DNA of 64,000 nucleotides from Acidobacteriota bacterium (GTDB taxonomy: Bacteria; Acidobacteriota; Terriglobia; Acidiferrales; UBA7541). The DNA lies in the NCBI GenBank assembly GCA_013289585.1, contig JABCZR010000002.1, positions 62,001 through 126,000 on the forward strand, written 5' to 3'. Numbering within the stretch: the stretch's first letter is position 1; each line of letters begins with the position of its first letter. The notes under the pieces were generated by a model. The model was not told the origin of the DNA, ran no database searches, and worked only from the letters and a program-made list of their open reading frames with translations. Made by a program: the position numbers and the translations under genes. Shown in pieces: positions 35,643-49,851 of this stretch.

Positions 35643-36314
35643 CTAATGCCCCAGCAACAGGTTCGTCGCGAACGCTTCGACGTACTGATAGAACTGCCGG
35701 AACACCACCAGTCCCACTAGCAGCCCCAGCATCGCGTAGCTGTTCCCGCGCAGCCAATCCAGGTATTTGTGCGCTCGTTCTTCGCTCATGAACAACATAA
35801 TCACCGTACTGCCATCCAGTGGTGGCACCGGCAGAAGGTTGAAAGTTCCCAGCAGCAGATTCAGCGAGAAAAAAACGAACAGTACCAATGTTGGAAAGGT
35901 CAGCTGGCCGGTGCCGGGATCGCGCCCTAGCCACTGCATCGCGGTGCCCACGCGAATGCCAATCACCGCTAGCAGCATCAGCGAATAATTCGCTGCCGGT
36001 CCCGCCAGCGCCATCCACGCCGAGCGGTGCGGGTGCCTCCGCTCCCACAGGGGATCGAACGGCGCGCTTGCCCACCCGATCATCGATCCGGTCACCACAT
36101 AGGAAAGCAGTGGAATCACCACCATGCCCCACGGTTCGCGCTGGATATGCGGCACTGGATTCAGCGACACCTGCCCGCCCAGCGCCGCCGTCGTGTCTCC
36201 CCCAATTTTGGCCACCAGCGCGTGCGCCGCCTCATGGCAAGTCGTCGAAAAAAGAAACGCCACGTACCAGATAAATCCAAACGCCAGCATCTCCGGCGTA
36301 ATATTGGGCATCAA
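35643..36314 (-). CDS. site-2-protease-family zinc metalloprotease (M50-like)
   Basis: The 223-residue membrane protein has about six hydrophobic segments. The zinc-binding motif HEAAH lies early (STTCHEAAHALVAKIGG, about residues 24-40), and the second ligand region is NLLPVPPLDGS, the N-x-P-x-x-DG motif of M50 intramembrane proteases. No PDZ domain is present, so it belongs to the small FpvI/YwhC-like or SpoIVFB-like soluble-loop group. Substrate is unknown; such proteases cut membrane-anchored regulators. It is divergent from the NagB-like gene, with about 150 bases between. Confidence 0.88.
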   Translation of the reverse strand: MMPNITPEMLAFGFIWYVAFLFSTTCHEAAHALVAKIGGDTTAALGGQVSLNPVPHIQREPWGMVVIPLLSYVVTGSMIGWASAPFDPLWERRHPHRSAWMALAGPAANYSLMLLAVIGIRVGTAMQWLGRDPGTGQLTFPTLVLFVFFSLNLLLGTFNLLPVPPLDGSTVIMLFMSEERAHKYLDWLRGNSYAMLGLLVGLVVFRQFYQYVEAFATNLLLGH

Positions 36315-46969: not shown

Positions 46970-47086
46970 AAAAGGGACTGCCATGAGTATTTGTCTGGAC
47001 AGTTCACTGGAGCTTAACCCGGCTCCGTCCGGGAGGCGGGCCGCTCCTCGCTCATCTCTGGTACCTTGGAAGGCGCTGCCAATCCG

Positions 47087-47464
47087 ATGGACACCGCCAC
47101 GAACCCATCCATGCTCCGAAGCATCCTCGAACAGCGCTGCCCACGGTGCCGCCTCGCAGGAATCTTCCGCGCTTCCATCTTTCGCGGCTTTCCGAAGATG
47201 CACCAGCGCTGCCCCGTCTGCGACCTCAAGTTCGAGCGCGAACCCGGCTACTTCCTCGGCGCCATGTATATCAGCTATCTCCTGGGAGTCGCCCTCATCG
47301 CAATCATGGCCGTGTTGTTGTGGGCCATCACCGGGTGGGGGCTCATCAAAGTTACCGTCTGTGCGATCGTTTTATTTTTGCCGCTGGCGCCGACACTCAC
47401 ACTTTTCGCGCGTGTTCTGTGGATTTATCTGGATCAGTCCGTCGATCCCGAGCGTCTGCGTTAA
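47087..47464 (+). CDS. DUF983 membrane protein
   Basis: The 125-residue product (ATG 47087; ATG 47111 also possible) shows the DUF983 signature: CPRCRLAGIFRASIFRGFPK, HQRCPVCDLKFEREPGYFLG and AMYISYLLGV, then two hydrophobic helices. The two CxxC pairs likely bind zinc. Members are found in many bacteria with unknown role, sometimes near respiratory genes. Its TAA stop at 47462-47464 overlaps the stop of the convergent pseudokinase gene (TTAA is shared by both stops). Confidence 0.85.
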   Translation: MDTATNPSMLRSILEQRCPRCRLAGIFRASIFRGFPKMHQRCPVCDLKFEREPGYFLGAMYISYLLGVALIAIMAVLLWAITGWGLIKVTVCAIVLFLPLAPTLTLFARVLWIYLDQSVDPERLR

Positions 47465-49050
47465 GGAGTCTTTTGTGTGGGGAACGCTTTCGTGTCCGCT
47501 TGCGTGAACTCGAACCGGATGACCCATTCGCTGGGCACGCTGTGGCCGTCCACTTCCGGTGCCGTGAATTCCCAACGCCGCGCGGCCTGGATCGCCAGAT
47601 CGGCAAAATATTTGCTCGGCCCGGGCGCATCGAGTTCCGCTTGCGAAACATTTCCCGCGGGCTCCACCTGCACGCGCACGCTGACGCGCACTTTACCCTG
47701 AATCGTCCCGCGCGCTCTGCCGGAAACGTCCGGCAAGACCTGATCGAGCACTTCACCGTGAGCTGGTGAAACACTCGACGATTTCGGCGCGTTGGCCGAC
47801 GGGAACGTGTCAGTGCGCAGAGCAGCCGTCGCCGGCGCGGCATTCACAGGTTGCGCAGGCGCTGCAACCAGTTTTTCCGGCGGCGCAGGCTTTTTCTCGG
47901 CGGCAGCTTTAGCGGAATTCTTTGCCGTCGGCTGCGTCGCCGGGGATGTTTCGCGATGCGCCGGCTGTTCCACGGCTTTTGGCTTTGACGCGGGCTGCGC
48001 TGCTGCATTCGCTGCAGAAGTCGAAGACTCCGCGCGATGCCCCAGTATTTTCGGCAGCGCGACAATGGCAACAAGCACCAGAAATACCGCGAACACGGGA
48101 ATCGCGTAGTTGGGCAGAACCAGAGTTGGCTTCGCCGAAGTCGTTCCCGGCGCCCTAGGCGTGGGCGCCTTCGGCGCGGGCGCATCATACTTCGGCGTTT
48201 GCAGCTTGGCCGCGGGAACCGCGGGCACCGACGAAAGCGGCACCGCCAGCGGCGAAATCGATTGCCCCGCCGCGGCCGCGACCGCCGTGGGATTCATGCG
48301 CGCCGCGATTTCCGCAATCGTCCAGCGGCGCTTCGGCTCGCGCACCAGAGCGTGACGCGTGATGTCCAGGAACGGCTGCGGAATCGCATCCGACACCACC
48401 GGATCAGATTGCGCGTTCGCCGGCATAACCGGCAGGCGCTGCGTGAGCACTTCGACGAGCGTCACGCCCAGCGACCACACATCGCTGGCCGCCGTGAGTC
48501 CGGAAATCGCGACTTCCGGCGCGGTATATAGGCTGGGCCGCGTCATCGGCGCTTGCGATTCCGCGATCGACGCGAGCGTGTCGCTCGAAAGCTTCAGTTG
48601 ATCGGACGTAGCCTGAATGTTGGAAGGCTTTATATGCCCGTGAACGAGGCCTTTGGCGTGGAGATAAACCAGAACATCCAGAACCGGCCCCAGCATGTCC
48701 CGCGTTTCCGCCGCCGTCAGTGCCCGCTGCGGCAAGATTTGCGAAAGGTCCTCTTCCGCAAACTCCAGCACGACGTACAGAAAATTGGTGTCCTCCAGCC
48801 GGCCGCGCCCGTAATCAAAAATTTTCAGCAAATTGGGATGAGAGAGTTGTGCGGCAAGACGCCAGCGGGAAAGTTGCAGGTCCGCAGTCGCGGGATCCGC
48901 GGGAACCAGCTTGATCACCGCGTTTTGCGGCTGCAAATCACCGCGCTGCGTCAGAAATACCGCGCTGTGATCATCACCCGCCAGAAGCTGCCTCAGCGGG
49001 AACTCCTCGTCGACGATCTGCCCCTCGAACTGTCTCCATACATCCGACAT
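47461..49050 (-). CDS. pseudokinase-TonB fusion protein
   Basis: The 529-residue protein has an N-terminal kinase-like domain (about 15-255). VIKLV supplies a Lys (47), APEV (177-180) and DVWSLGV (190-196) are kinase-like, but the catalytic HRD reads HGH (137-139; HIKPSN follows) and DFG is missing (LKLSSD). Gly-rich loop is absent too. A Pro/Ala-rich linker leads to one transmembrane helix (about 314-335), then an Ala/Lys/Pro-rich periplasmic spacer and a C-terminal TonB-like domain (about 440-525, with GTIQGKVRVSVRVQVEPAGN and ARRWEFTAPEVDG). It probably senses something in the cytoplasm without phosphotransfer and couples to an outer-membrane receptor or sits in the periplasm. The domain order is unusual. 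Confidence 0.85.
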   Translation of the reverse strand: MSDVWRQFEGQIVDEEFPLRQLLAGDDHSAVFLTQRGDLQPQNAVIKLVPADPATADLQLSRWRLAAQLSHPNLLKIFDYGRGRLEDTNFLYVVLEFAEEDLSQILPQRALTAAETRDMLGPVLDVLVYLHAKGLVHGHIKPSNIQATSDQLKLSSDTLASIAESQAPMTRPSLYTAPEVAISGLTAASDVWSLGVTLVEVLTQRLPVMPANAQSDPVVSDAIPQPFLDITRHALVREPKRRWTIAEIAARMNPTAVAAAAGQSISPLAVPLSSVPAVPAAKLQTPKYDAPAPKAPTPRAPGTTSAKPTLVLPNYAIPVFAVFLVLVAIVALPKILGHRAESSTSAANAAAQPASKPKAVEQPAHRETSPATQPTAKNSAKAAAEKKPAPPEKLVAAPAQPVNAAPATAALRTDTFPSANAPKSSSVSPAHGEVLDQVLPDVSGRARGTIQGKVRVSVRVQVEPAGNVSQAELDAPGPSKYFADLAIQAARRWEFTAPEVDGHSVPSEWVIRFEFTQADTKAFPTQKTP

Positions 49051-49248: not shown

Positions 49249-49851
49249 CTATCGGTTATGGCGTGCCTTACCCTGGAAAGAGGTGGCACCCTTCGCCCGG
49301 CTCTTTTTCTGAGCCGCGCTACCGATCAGGGCCGCGCAAGCCGAAATGCAGGCTTGGCGGAATTCGCGATGGATTTTTGTGTGTGCTTTCGAGGAGTGCA
49401 ACAGGATGGCGGTGCCGTTGACGAGCGCAACCAGCGCGAGAGCCAGTCGCATGTGCCGGTGGCGGGCTCCGCCGAGTTGCGCCGCAAGCCGCTGCTCGAG
49501 GAATTCAAACGATGGCAGCGGCTCCTTGCGGGCCAGGGCGACGGCCCAATCCTCCGAAACGAGCCGGTAATCATGGGGATGTGCGGTAAAAAAATCGAGC
49601 GCGCGCCGGCAGGCCTCCACGGTGGAACGCGAAGAACGGATGGCGGAAAAAAGATTGCGGCGCGCGCGCCGGCGCAGCAGCACGAGAAGATCGCTTTTAT
49701 GCGAGAAGCGTTCGTAGAGAGTGGGCGTGGTGGTGCGCGCGGCGCGCGCAACCGCGCGCATGGTGAGCGCGTTTTCGCCGCGTTCGCTCCAGATTTTGTA
49801 CGCGGCGTCGAGGATACGACCTTCCAGGCGGGCATCCGCTTTGCGTGGCAT
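49249..49851 (-). CDS. TetR-family transcriptional regulator
   Basis: The 200-residue protein has an N-terminal TetR helix-turn-helix (about 8-55: ILDAAYKIWSERGENALTMR, RTTTPTLYERFSHKSDLL), then a helical ligand-binding domain and a basic tail (KKSRAKGATSFQGKARHNR). It should repress a gene nearby and release on ligand binding. The divergent SRPBCC gene, about 140 bases away, is the likely target. Length is usual. Confidence 0.9.
   Translation of the reverse strand: MPRKADARLEGRILDAAYKIWSERGENALTMRAVARAARTTTPTLYERFSHKSDLLVLLRRRARRNLFSAIRSSRSTVEACRRALDFFTAHPHDYRLVSEDWAVALARKEPLPSFEFLEQRLAAQLGGARHRHMRLALALVALVNGTAILLHSSKAHTKIHREFRQACISACAALIGSAAQKKSRAKGATSFQGKARHNR

Follow-up and report, generated by a model that had tools for sequence, protein, structure and literature searches.

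The window is a stretch of 64,000 nucleotides from an Acidobacteriota bacterium (assembly GCA_013289585.1, contig JABCZR010000002.1, positions 62,001 to 126,000). One of its genes encodes a protein in which a kinase-like domain, a membrane helix, a linker and a TonB_C domain follow one another. The gene, its parts and its two neighbours are as follows.

47461..49050, minus strand: the whole gene, comprising pseudokinase, membrane helix, Pro/Ala-rich linker and TonB_C (ORF with ATG start, 529 aa)
48265..49023, minus strand: kinase-like (pseudokinase) domain, approximately residues 10-262 (Pfam Pkinase 9.4e-22; phmmer to PknG 4.5e-16 over residues 10-251)
48040..48096, minus strand: residues 319-337, the core of the only membrane helix (19 residues with a mean hydropathy of 2.65)
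47764..48039, minus strand: Pro/Ala/Ser-rich linker, residues 338-429, presumably periplasmic (from the sequence and the composition of the family)
47464..47763, minus strand: TonB_C domain and tail, residues 430-529 (Pfam TonB_C at 450-515; the family profile retrieves ten solved TonB sequences)
47066..47464, plus strand: convergent DUF983 gene that shares 4 bases with the end of the pseudokinase gene, with no sign of membership in the same system (ORF list, Pfam)
49249..49851, minus strand: TetR-type regulator gene, upstream on the same strand, and likewise upstream of the orthologue in loci L039, L041, L042, L043 and L045

An earlier note, made from the DNA letters alone, described the product as a pseudokinase with a single membrane helix that connects it to a TonB_C-like domain in the periplasm. 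Pfam, motifs and hydropathy bear this architecture out, with the periplasmic side presumed. The HMM search proposed in that note places both domains above cut-off. The window protein reaches 78.1 bits with Pfam Pkinase (cut-off 31.7, best stretch residues 63-248), 33.1 bits with Pfam TonB_C (7.9e-8, cut-off 24.6) and 32.8 bits with NCBIfam tonB_Cterm (cut-off 27.1). In NCBIfam, no kinase equivalog comes close to its cut-off with this protein. Hydropathy gives one helix, and the Lys/Arg values before and after it are 3.2 and 2.2 in the members with a TonB_C end, which is a weak bias. The kinase side is presumably cytoplasmic and the TonB_C side periplasmic. Structure predictions returned a mean pLDDT of 39 for the window protein alone and 41 for its kinase domain together with the Planctomycetota kinase L038, values too low for use.

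Active Ser/Thr kinases are recognised by a beta-3 Lys, an HRD Asp, a DFG Asp and an alpha-C Glu. The window protein has the first and lacks the other three. The residues were placed by alignment with PknG and then followed through a family alignment of 111 members taken from 118 family-profile matches. This alignment omits ordinary kinases (the second match in L057, and L181), truncated or broken copies (L075, L077 and L154), the identical copy L140 and the one-residue variant L170; nine stretches fetched later lie outside all counts. By Pfam-checked grouping, 59 members carry a TonB_C domain at the C-terminus, 41 carry a SPOR-like domain (the SPOR-type members) and 11 carry neither.

48910..48912, minus strand: K47, the beta-3 (VIK) lysine, kept (PknG alignment; of 111 members, 70 have Lys and 34 have Arg)
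48865..48867, minus strand: R62 at the alpha-C Glu position (PknG alignment; Glu in 0 of 111, 2 gaps)
48634..48642, minus strand: H137-G138-H139 instead of HRD, with the catalytic Asp lost (PknG alignment; Asp in 3 of 111)
48580..48588, minus strand: S155-S156-D157 instead of x-D-F, with D157 one residue past the DFG Asp (107 of 111 members have Asp at 157 and none has it at 156)

In the PknG alignment the catalytic Asp falls on H139, the DFG Asp on S156, the position after it on D157 and the alpha-C Glu on R62. The earlier note had read the loss of HRD from the HGH at 137-139 and the loss of DFG from the SSD region, and both readings extend to the family. The HRD Asp column is mostly His (62 of 111) or Arg (33), with Asp in only 3 members, and the DFG Asp column has Asp in none. 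The elements that it listed as kept, the VIK lysine, APE and the DVWSLG helix, are present as K47, A177-P178-E179 and D190-V-W-S-L-G. Its statement that there is no Gly-rich loop is right in that the loop of the window protein is degenerate (LLAGDDHSAVFLT), but it is slightly too strong, because Gly is found at position 24 in 55 and at position 25 in 44 of the 59 TonB_C-type members. A complete kinase active site, which the note itself had named as evidence against it, is absent, three of the four residues being lost in the window protein. The loss of the alpha-C Glu had been overlooked; the column directly after it holds Trp in 95 of 111 members.

A bacterial pseudokinase is defined by the loss of any of the beta-3 Lys, the HRD Asp and the DFG Asp, according to the part of a 2025 review of bacterial pseudokinase families available to us (PMC12599244). 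The window protein is without two of these three residues. Other pocket positions are well kept in the family: a basic residue at 47 in 104 of 111 members, N144 in 96 and D157 in 107. They raise the question of an unorthodox enzyme, whose pocket would bind nucleotide through K47, N144 and D157 and would either phosphorylate weakly or catalyse a different transfer, in the manner of SelO and SidJ. A parallel exists in the DYD family, where the second Asp is paired with the beta-3 residue and ATP has been modelled in the pocket, as the same part of the review describes (PMC12599244). The HRD Asp is kept, as HGD, in three members. These three form one clade inside the tree and still lack the other two acids; from this position in the tree, their Asp may be either a reversal or a relic. 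Against an enzyme stands the scale of the losses: the catalytic Asp is gone from 108 of 111 members and the DFG Asp from all 111, and an alpha-C Glu is found in 0 of 111. The activation segment is also much shortened in many SPOR-type members, unlike that of a conserved enzyme. We regard an enzymatic role as unlikely. A count of the APE pattern in SPOR-type members (24 of 41) was discarded, since in the shortened segment the pattern also picks up short stretches that are unrelated to the motif.

The kept positions suggest a structural use as well. Lys/Arg47 may pair with the shifted Asp157 and stabilise the fold, taking over from the Lys-Glu pair that was lost. In 104 of 111 members Asp157 is accompanied by a basic residue at 47, and the 4 rows without Asp157 are also without Lys/Arg47. 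The covariation of the two positions (Fisher p 6e-6) was rejected as proof of pairing. It loses significance when ancestry is taken into account: only 3 independent well-supported pairs exist, and in nearly all pairings 2 of them agree, 0 disagree and 1 is neutral.

Several known pseudokinases resemble the family in part, and the comparisons that follow draw on the accessible portions of the sources cited. MviN of mycobacteria (ActPs3) is also a transmembrane pseudokinase and is essential for peptidoglycan synthesis (PMC12599244, PMC3989709). It differs in its motifs, which are VALT / Lsidhpsr / Y-- (PMC12599244) where the window protein has the VIK Lys and HGHIKPSN, and in lacking the TonB_C or SPOR-like end of the present family. 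EssB/YukC of the Firmicutes type VII secretion system is a transmembrane, non-catalytic pseudokinase scaffold, and it shares a degraded glycine loop and an attenuated activation loop with many SPOR-type members (PMC12599244). Unlike the present family, it belongs to another phylum, has a secretion system as partner and carries, in EssB, the motifs LDMR / Ytfvlapd / TRG, a comparison made by description (PMC12599244). The DYD pseudokinases of actinobacteria and firmicutes are membrane-associated and have lost the alpha-C Glu, and a pairing of the later Asp of their DFG site with the beta-3 residue has been proposed (PMC12599244). They have a beta-3 Arg and keep the first Asp, whereas the present family has S-x-D with Lys or Arg. 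The window protein lies outside ActPs3 and DYD, being set apart by motif (VIK, HGHIKPSN, SSD) and not by profile. ActPs2, GLW and DLHK have other motifs, and the review also covers ActPs1 and CP1 (PMC12599244). A word search of the review text at hand gave 0 occurrences of 'acidobacteri', 'tonb' and 'spor'. No prior description of a pseudokinase fused to TonB_C or SPOR was found in open-licence PMC papers, preprints excluded. The earlier note had called the architecture one it did not know as described, and this agrees with our searches: the fusion was found in no library model and in none of the open-licence PMC papers searched. An established family that treats the fusion as an active kinase was likewise found neither in the libraries nor in those papers.

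Relatives of the window protein are common in its surroundings. Of a set of 61 genomes made up of the window's own and those around it, 33 match at 1e-20 or better. Seventeen relatives in the genus, besides the window protein, align in one piece over essentially the full length with 41-73% identity; the remaining matches in the 61 genomes align in two pieces or by the kinase part alone. The pseudokinase profile finds 101 of 299 genomes of the class at 1e-30. A profile built from the divergent branch finds 109 of the 299 at 1e-20, a count that includes the weakly matching G240 and the unread G047; G240 was rejected as an ordinary intact kinase. The majority of the class sample is without a family match at these thresholds, and most genomes that hold the family have one match. 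In a phylum-wide sample, 20 of 297 genomes match, all but one inside the class. The exception, G478, was set aside; its HRD and DFG are intact and its C-terminus is of another kind. In the genomes sampled here the family occurs in a single class. No relative of the window protein was found in viral contigs, and a scan of genome contigs with the window protein alone returned only a Planctomycetota kinase. Among plasmid records 175 have a match, none covering 80% of the protein, and the 15 listed of these match only the kinase part. A survey for the same domain order, suggested in the earlier note, shows that the order is common to the 59 TonB_C members of the class.

Selection acts on both ends of the protein. 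In seven pairs (NG86; dS above 1 in two of them) dN/dS is 0.03-0.24 over the first 262 codons, 0.06-0.22 over the last 100 and 0.18-0.56 over the stretch between, which shows constraint on both folded parts and less of it on the linker. A chance origin is excluded by the 17 full-length relatives at 41-73% identity together with the dN/dS of 0.03-0.24.

Eukaryotic pseudokinases commonly regulate active kinases. The dead domain could likewise pair with an active Ser/Thr kinase and tune it, in which case the periplasmic domain would be a stalk. Candidates for such a kinase exist: the window's genome has 20 further matches to the window protein, in its kinase-like region, and L057 has an ordinary kinase gene approximately 5 kb away. 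This role appears rather unlikely to us, as no active-kinase gene was seen among the neighbours conserved across loci (judged by eye, a few by Pfam), and as the C-terminal domains, with the dN/dS given above for their 100 codons, are too well conserved to be mere stalks.

The gene neighbourhood consists of housekeeping genes or of local synteny inside the genus, as seen in a comparison of all ORFs. Upstream in the genus loci are an MPG glycosylase, a GNAT protein and a DUF1684 protein (Pfam) and a transhydrogenase-like gene (by eye). An M50 peptidase is present in 14 fetched loci. The same comparison, done mostly by eye and with many antisense ORFs, revealed no partner whose conservation reaches past the genus. 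One gene is conserved upstream of three SPOR-type loci; in L123, the only one scanned, it belongs to the beta-lactamase family, and it was taken as local.

The C-terminal domain differs between members of the family. Pfam recognises TonB_C in all 59 TonB_C-type members at E 0.01, some of them below the curated cut-off (e.g. L063). The SPOR-like domains occupy the same slot behind pseudokinase, helix and linker; Pfam SPOR matches 36 of the 41 at E 0.01, and 5 are without a match at that threshold. The window protein has the TonB_C end and no SPOR. The two domains are unrelated by profile comparison (hhalign probability 0.4%), and the SPOR-like profile yields one weak match, to a SPOR amidase (E 0.07). 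The members with neither domain are ten of a paralogous clade in the window's genus and L147, whose frame is short and whose sequence contains ambiguous bases. By taxon, f1 has 41 TonB_C members plus the window protein and the 11 others, f6 has 2 TonB_C members, f11 has 8 TonB_C and 33 SPOR, and f7 has 7 TonB_C and 8 SPOR. Two later members of f7 were classed by eye, L204 as TonB_C and L202 as SPOR. None of 100 genomes holds both C-terminal types among the members classed. The types cluster on the kinase-domain tree, where the SPOR label changes at least 3 times; well-supported branches of this quick tree, which has several long branches, force 1 change. One or a few domain swaps thus took place.

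The earlier note suggested a cytoplasmic sensor that could couple to, or be driven by, an outer-membrane receptor. In such a sensor the TonB_C domain would bind a TonB-dependent receptor and would relay its state, or the force of ExbBD, to the cytoplasmic pseudokinase. The protein does resemble a TonB energy transducer. Its C-terminal domain is a true profile match that finds solved TonB domains, it has a single helix and a Pro-rich spacer, and ExbD and receptor genes exist elsewhere in the genome, which has 24 TonB_C matches including this gene. Linked ExbD and receptor genes were not found in this genome. No ExbD match lies on the gene's contig (C2), the six in the genome being on C3, C8 and C15, and no receptor plug was found within approximately 60 kb; the nearest of the genome's ten is about 60 kb off, outside the window.

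The Ton features of the protein itself are also mostly absent. Two marks of TonB are a His within the SHLS motif of its membrane helix and a D-box strand just after that helix, as given in the available portion of PMC10907165. A His in the 19-residue helix core is found in 0 of the 59 TonB_C-type members. With three more residues on each side, 13 of the 59, among them the window protein, have one, mostly at the helix end, and the S-H spacing occurs in 2 of 59. The helix cores of SPOR-type members have His in 11 of 41. A D-box-like pattern after the helix, defined crudely as three alternating hydrophobics, is present in 1 of 59 and absent from 58. A Tyr-Pro motif opens the C-terminal domain of TonB; in the 59 members the Pro is always kept and the Tyr never is. 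Controls were nine chosen proteins of the genome's 24 TonB_C matches. By eye, 8 of the 9 have the Tyr, followed by Pro in 4. His is found in only 3 of the 9. Three of the nine have an ExbD match no more than about 1.3 kb away, and 1 of these three has the His. Taken by itself, the His test is thus weak, and two of the three TonB_C proteins near ExbD matches would fail it as well. Taken with the lack of a linked ExbD or plug, the mostly absent Ton features and the SPOR-like domain that sister lineages have in place of TonB_C, receptor coupling finds no support here, and we hold it to be quite unlikely.

Published statements connect both kinds of end with the cell wall. The sources on this point were accessible in part. 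SPOR domains bind denuded glycan, and all known SPOR proteins reportedly act in division or morphogenesis (PMC6895207). An interaction with peptidoglycan has been suggested for the TonB dimer (PMC7014051). The SPOR-type relatives share with SPOR proteins of the FtsN/DamX/DedD type the order of cytoplasmic part, helix, linker and SPOR-like domain. They differ from these in that the cytoplasmic part is a pseudokinase and the glycan-contacting Gln is absent; the window protein differs further in its TonB_C end. This Gln of strand beta-1 is highly conserved in SPOR domains (PMC6895207). At the position that we matched to it, all 41 SPOR-like ends have Val or Ile, so their ligand may differ. Among the 20 SPOR-type loci with fetched neighbourhoods, a bactofilin gene adjoins the pseudokinase gene in two. 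It lies upstream on the same strand and abutting in L133, and divergently with 176 bases between in L132. In L070 it is about 4.7 kb from a pseudokinase pair, and the other searched loci have none within the fetched stretch. Bactofilins are cytoskeletal and, in other bacteria, linked to the wall. The adjacency is a lead only to a wall link.

We infer that the protein is a non-catalytic transmembrane pseudokinase that docks a cytoplasmic partner and is tethered to the envelope by its TonB_C or SPOR-like end. We give this reading close to an even chance, and an envelope scaffold fits better than outer-membrane receptor coupling. The kinase fold would face the cytoplasm and offer the partner a docking surface, with no phosphate being transferred. 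The terminal domain would span the periplasm and hold the envelope, its most likely target being peptidoglycan or a component attached to it. The state of the wall would then decide how the protein localises or gates its partner, a scaffold role without catalysis on the pattern of MviN and EssB/YukC. The scaffold is favoured by the catalytic losses in the 111 members combined with purifying selection on the kinase domain; by the use of one slot for the unrelated TonB_C and SPOR-like ends, never both in a genome among the members classed; and by the published wall links, as far as the cited texts were accessible, together with the bactofilin adjacency. It is weakened by the Gln missing from every SPOR-like end and by the rarity of that adjacency, and also because a domain swap can mean a changed function.

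More broadly, and a little more tentatively, we propose that these proteins constitute a class-wide, previously undescribed family of membrane-spanning pseudokinases in which unrelated TonB_C and SPOR domains share a slot and never occur together in a genome. If this is true, TonB_C can act beyond the Ton system as an anchor to the wall or envelope, and in these bacteria the state of the cell wall is connected to the cytoplasm through a dead kinase fold. Few studies have dealt with bacterial pseudokinases; the present family is widespread in one class and under selection. It offers a natural domain-swap experiment, with the same dead kinase joined to either of two unrelated ends, which makes it testable what TonB_C binds outside the Ton system and whether a non-catalytic kinase fold reads the state of the wall. 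Several of the SPOR-type genomes are single-contig assemblies, and cultivable species may therefore exist.

The pseudokinase gene of the window and a DUF983 gene are convergent and overlap by 4 bases (window 47461-47464). A gene for an M50-family peptidase shares the fetched stretch with an orthologue of the pseudokinase gene in 14 loci. In the nearer of these loci it lies 155 to 1721 bases downstream of the orthologue, whereas the M50-family peptidase gene of the window (35643-36314) is about 11 kb from the pseudokinase gene; this difference in distance is a local rearrangement.

In a paralogous clade of the window's genus (loci L065, L068, L069, L070, L072, L073, and L074), the same pseudokinase is joined to a different conserved segment. 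A Cys-containing motif (VRCDECGKEY, for instance) lies in this segment, which had no Pfam match in L065 and L074, the two examples scanned. The long forms of the clade carry a hydrophobic helix further on. L070 contains a tandem pair of pseudokinase genes (L070:6315-7127 and L070:7250-9031), one of which encodes the domain only, without a membrane helix, while the other encodes the clade's extra segment and the helix. Bactofilin genes are found near this pair and beside two pseudokinase genes of the SPOR type, as sorted by C-terminal domain.

Bactofilin genes near pseudokinase loci
L133:7059-7460, directly adjoins a SPOR-type pseudokinase gene; Pfam match (E-value 1.8e-20)
L132:5756-6226, directly adjoins a SPOR-type pseudokinase gene; Pfam match (E-value 1.7e-25)
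L070:1177-1635, separated by about 4.7 kb from the tandem genes; phmmer match only

Decay of the kinase fold is not confined to the SPOR type, because two TonB_C-type members show an apparent loss of much of the activation segment. A reading of the L064 sequence (genome G054) indicates that much of this segment has apparently been lost from the kinase domain, and in L157 (G192) it seems to be largely lost, judging solely by a truncated profile match. The orthologue in L075 (G005:C202) is interrupted, with the pseudokinase part and the TonB_C part in two separate ORFs; either the gene is broken or the sequence contains an error. Identical proteins of 431 aa are encoded by L111:7094-8386 and L140:7577-8869. 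The two genomes carry different family assignments (f11 and f1), and one of the assemblies may be contaminated.

The kinase encoded at L201 (G478:C4) is intact and has a repeat-rich C-terminus. Its gene is flanked by an ATPase-like ORF and a DUF262-looking ORF, and by eye these surroundings resemble a phage-defence setting.
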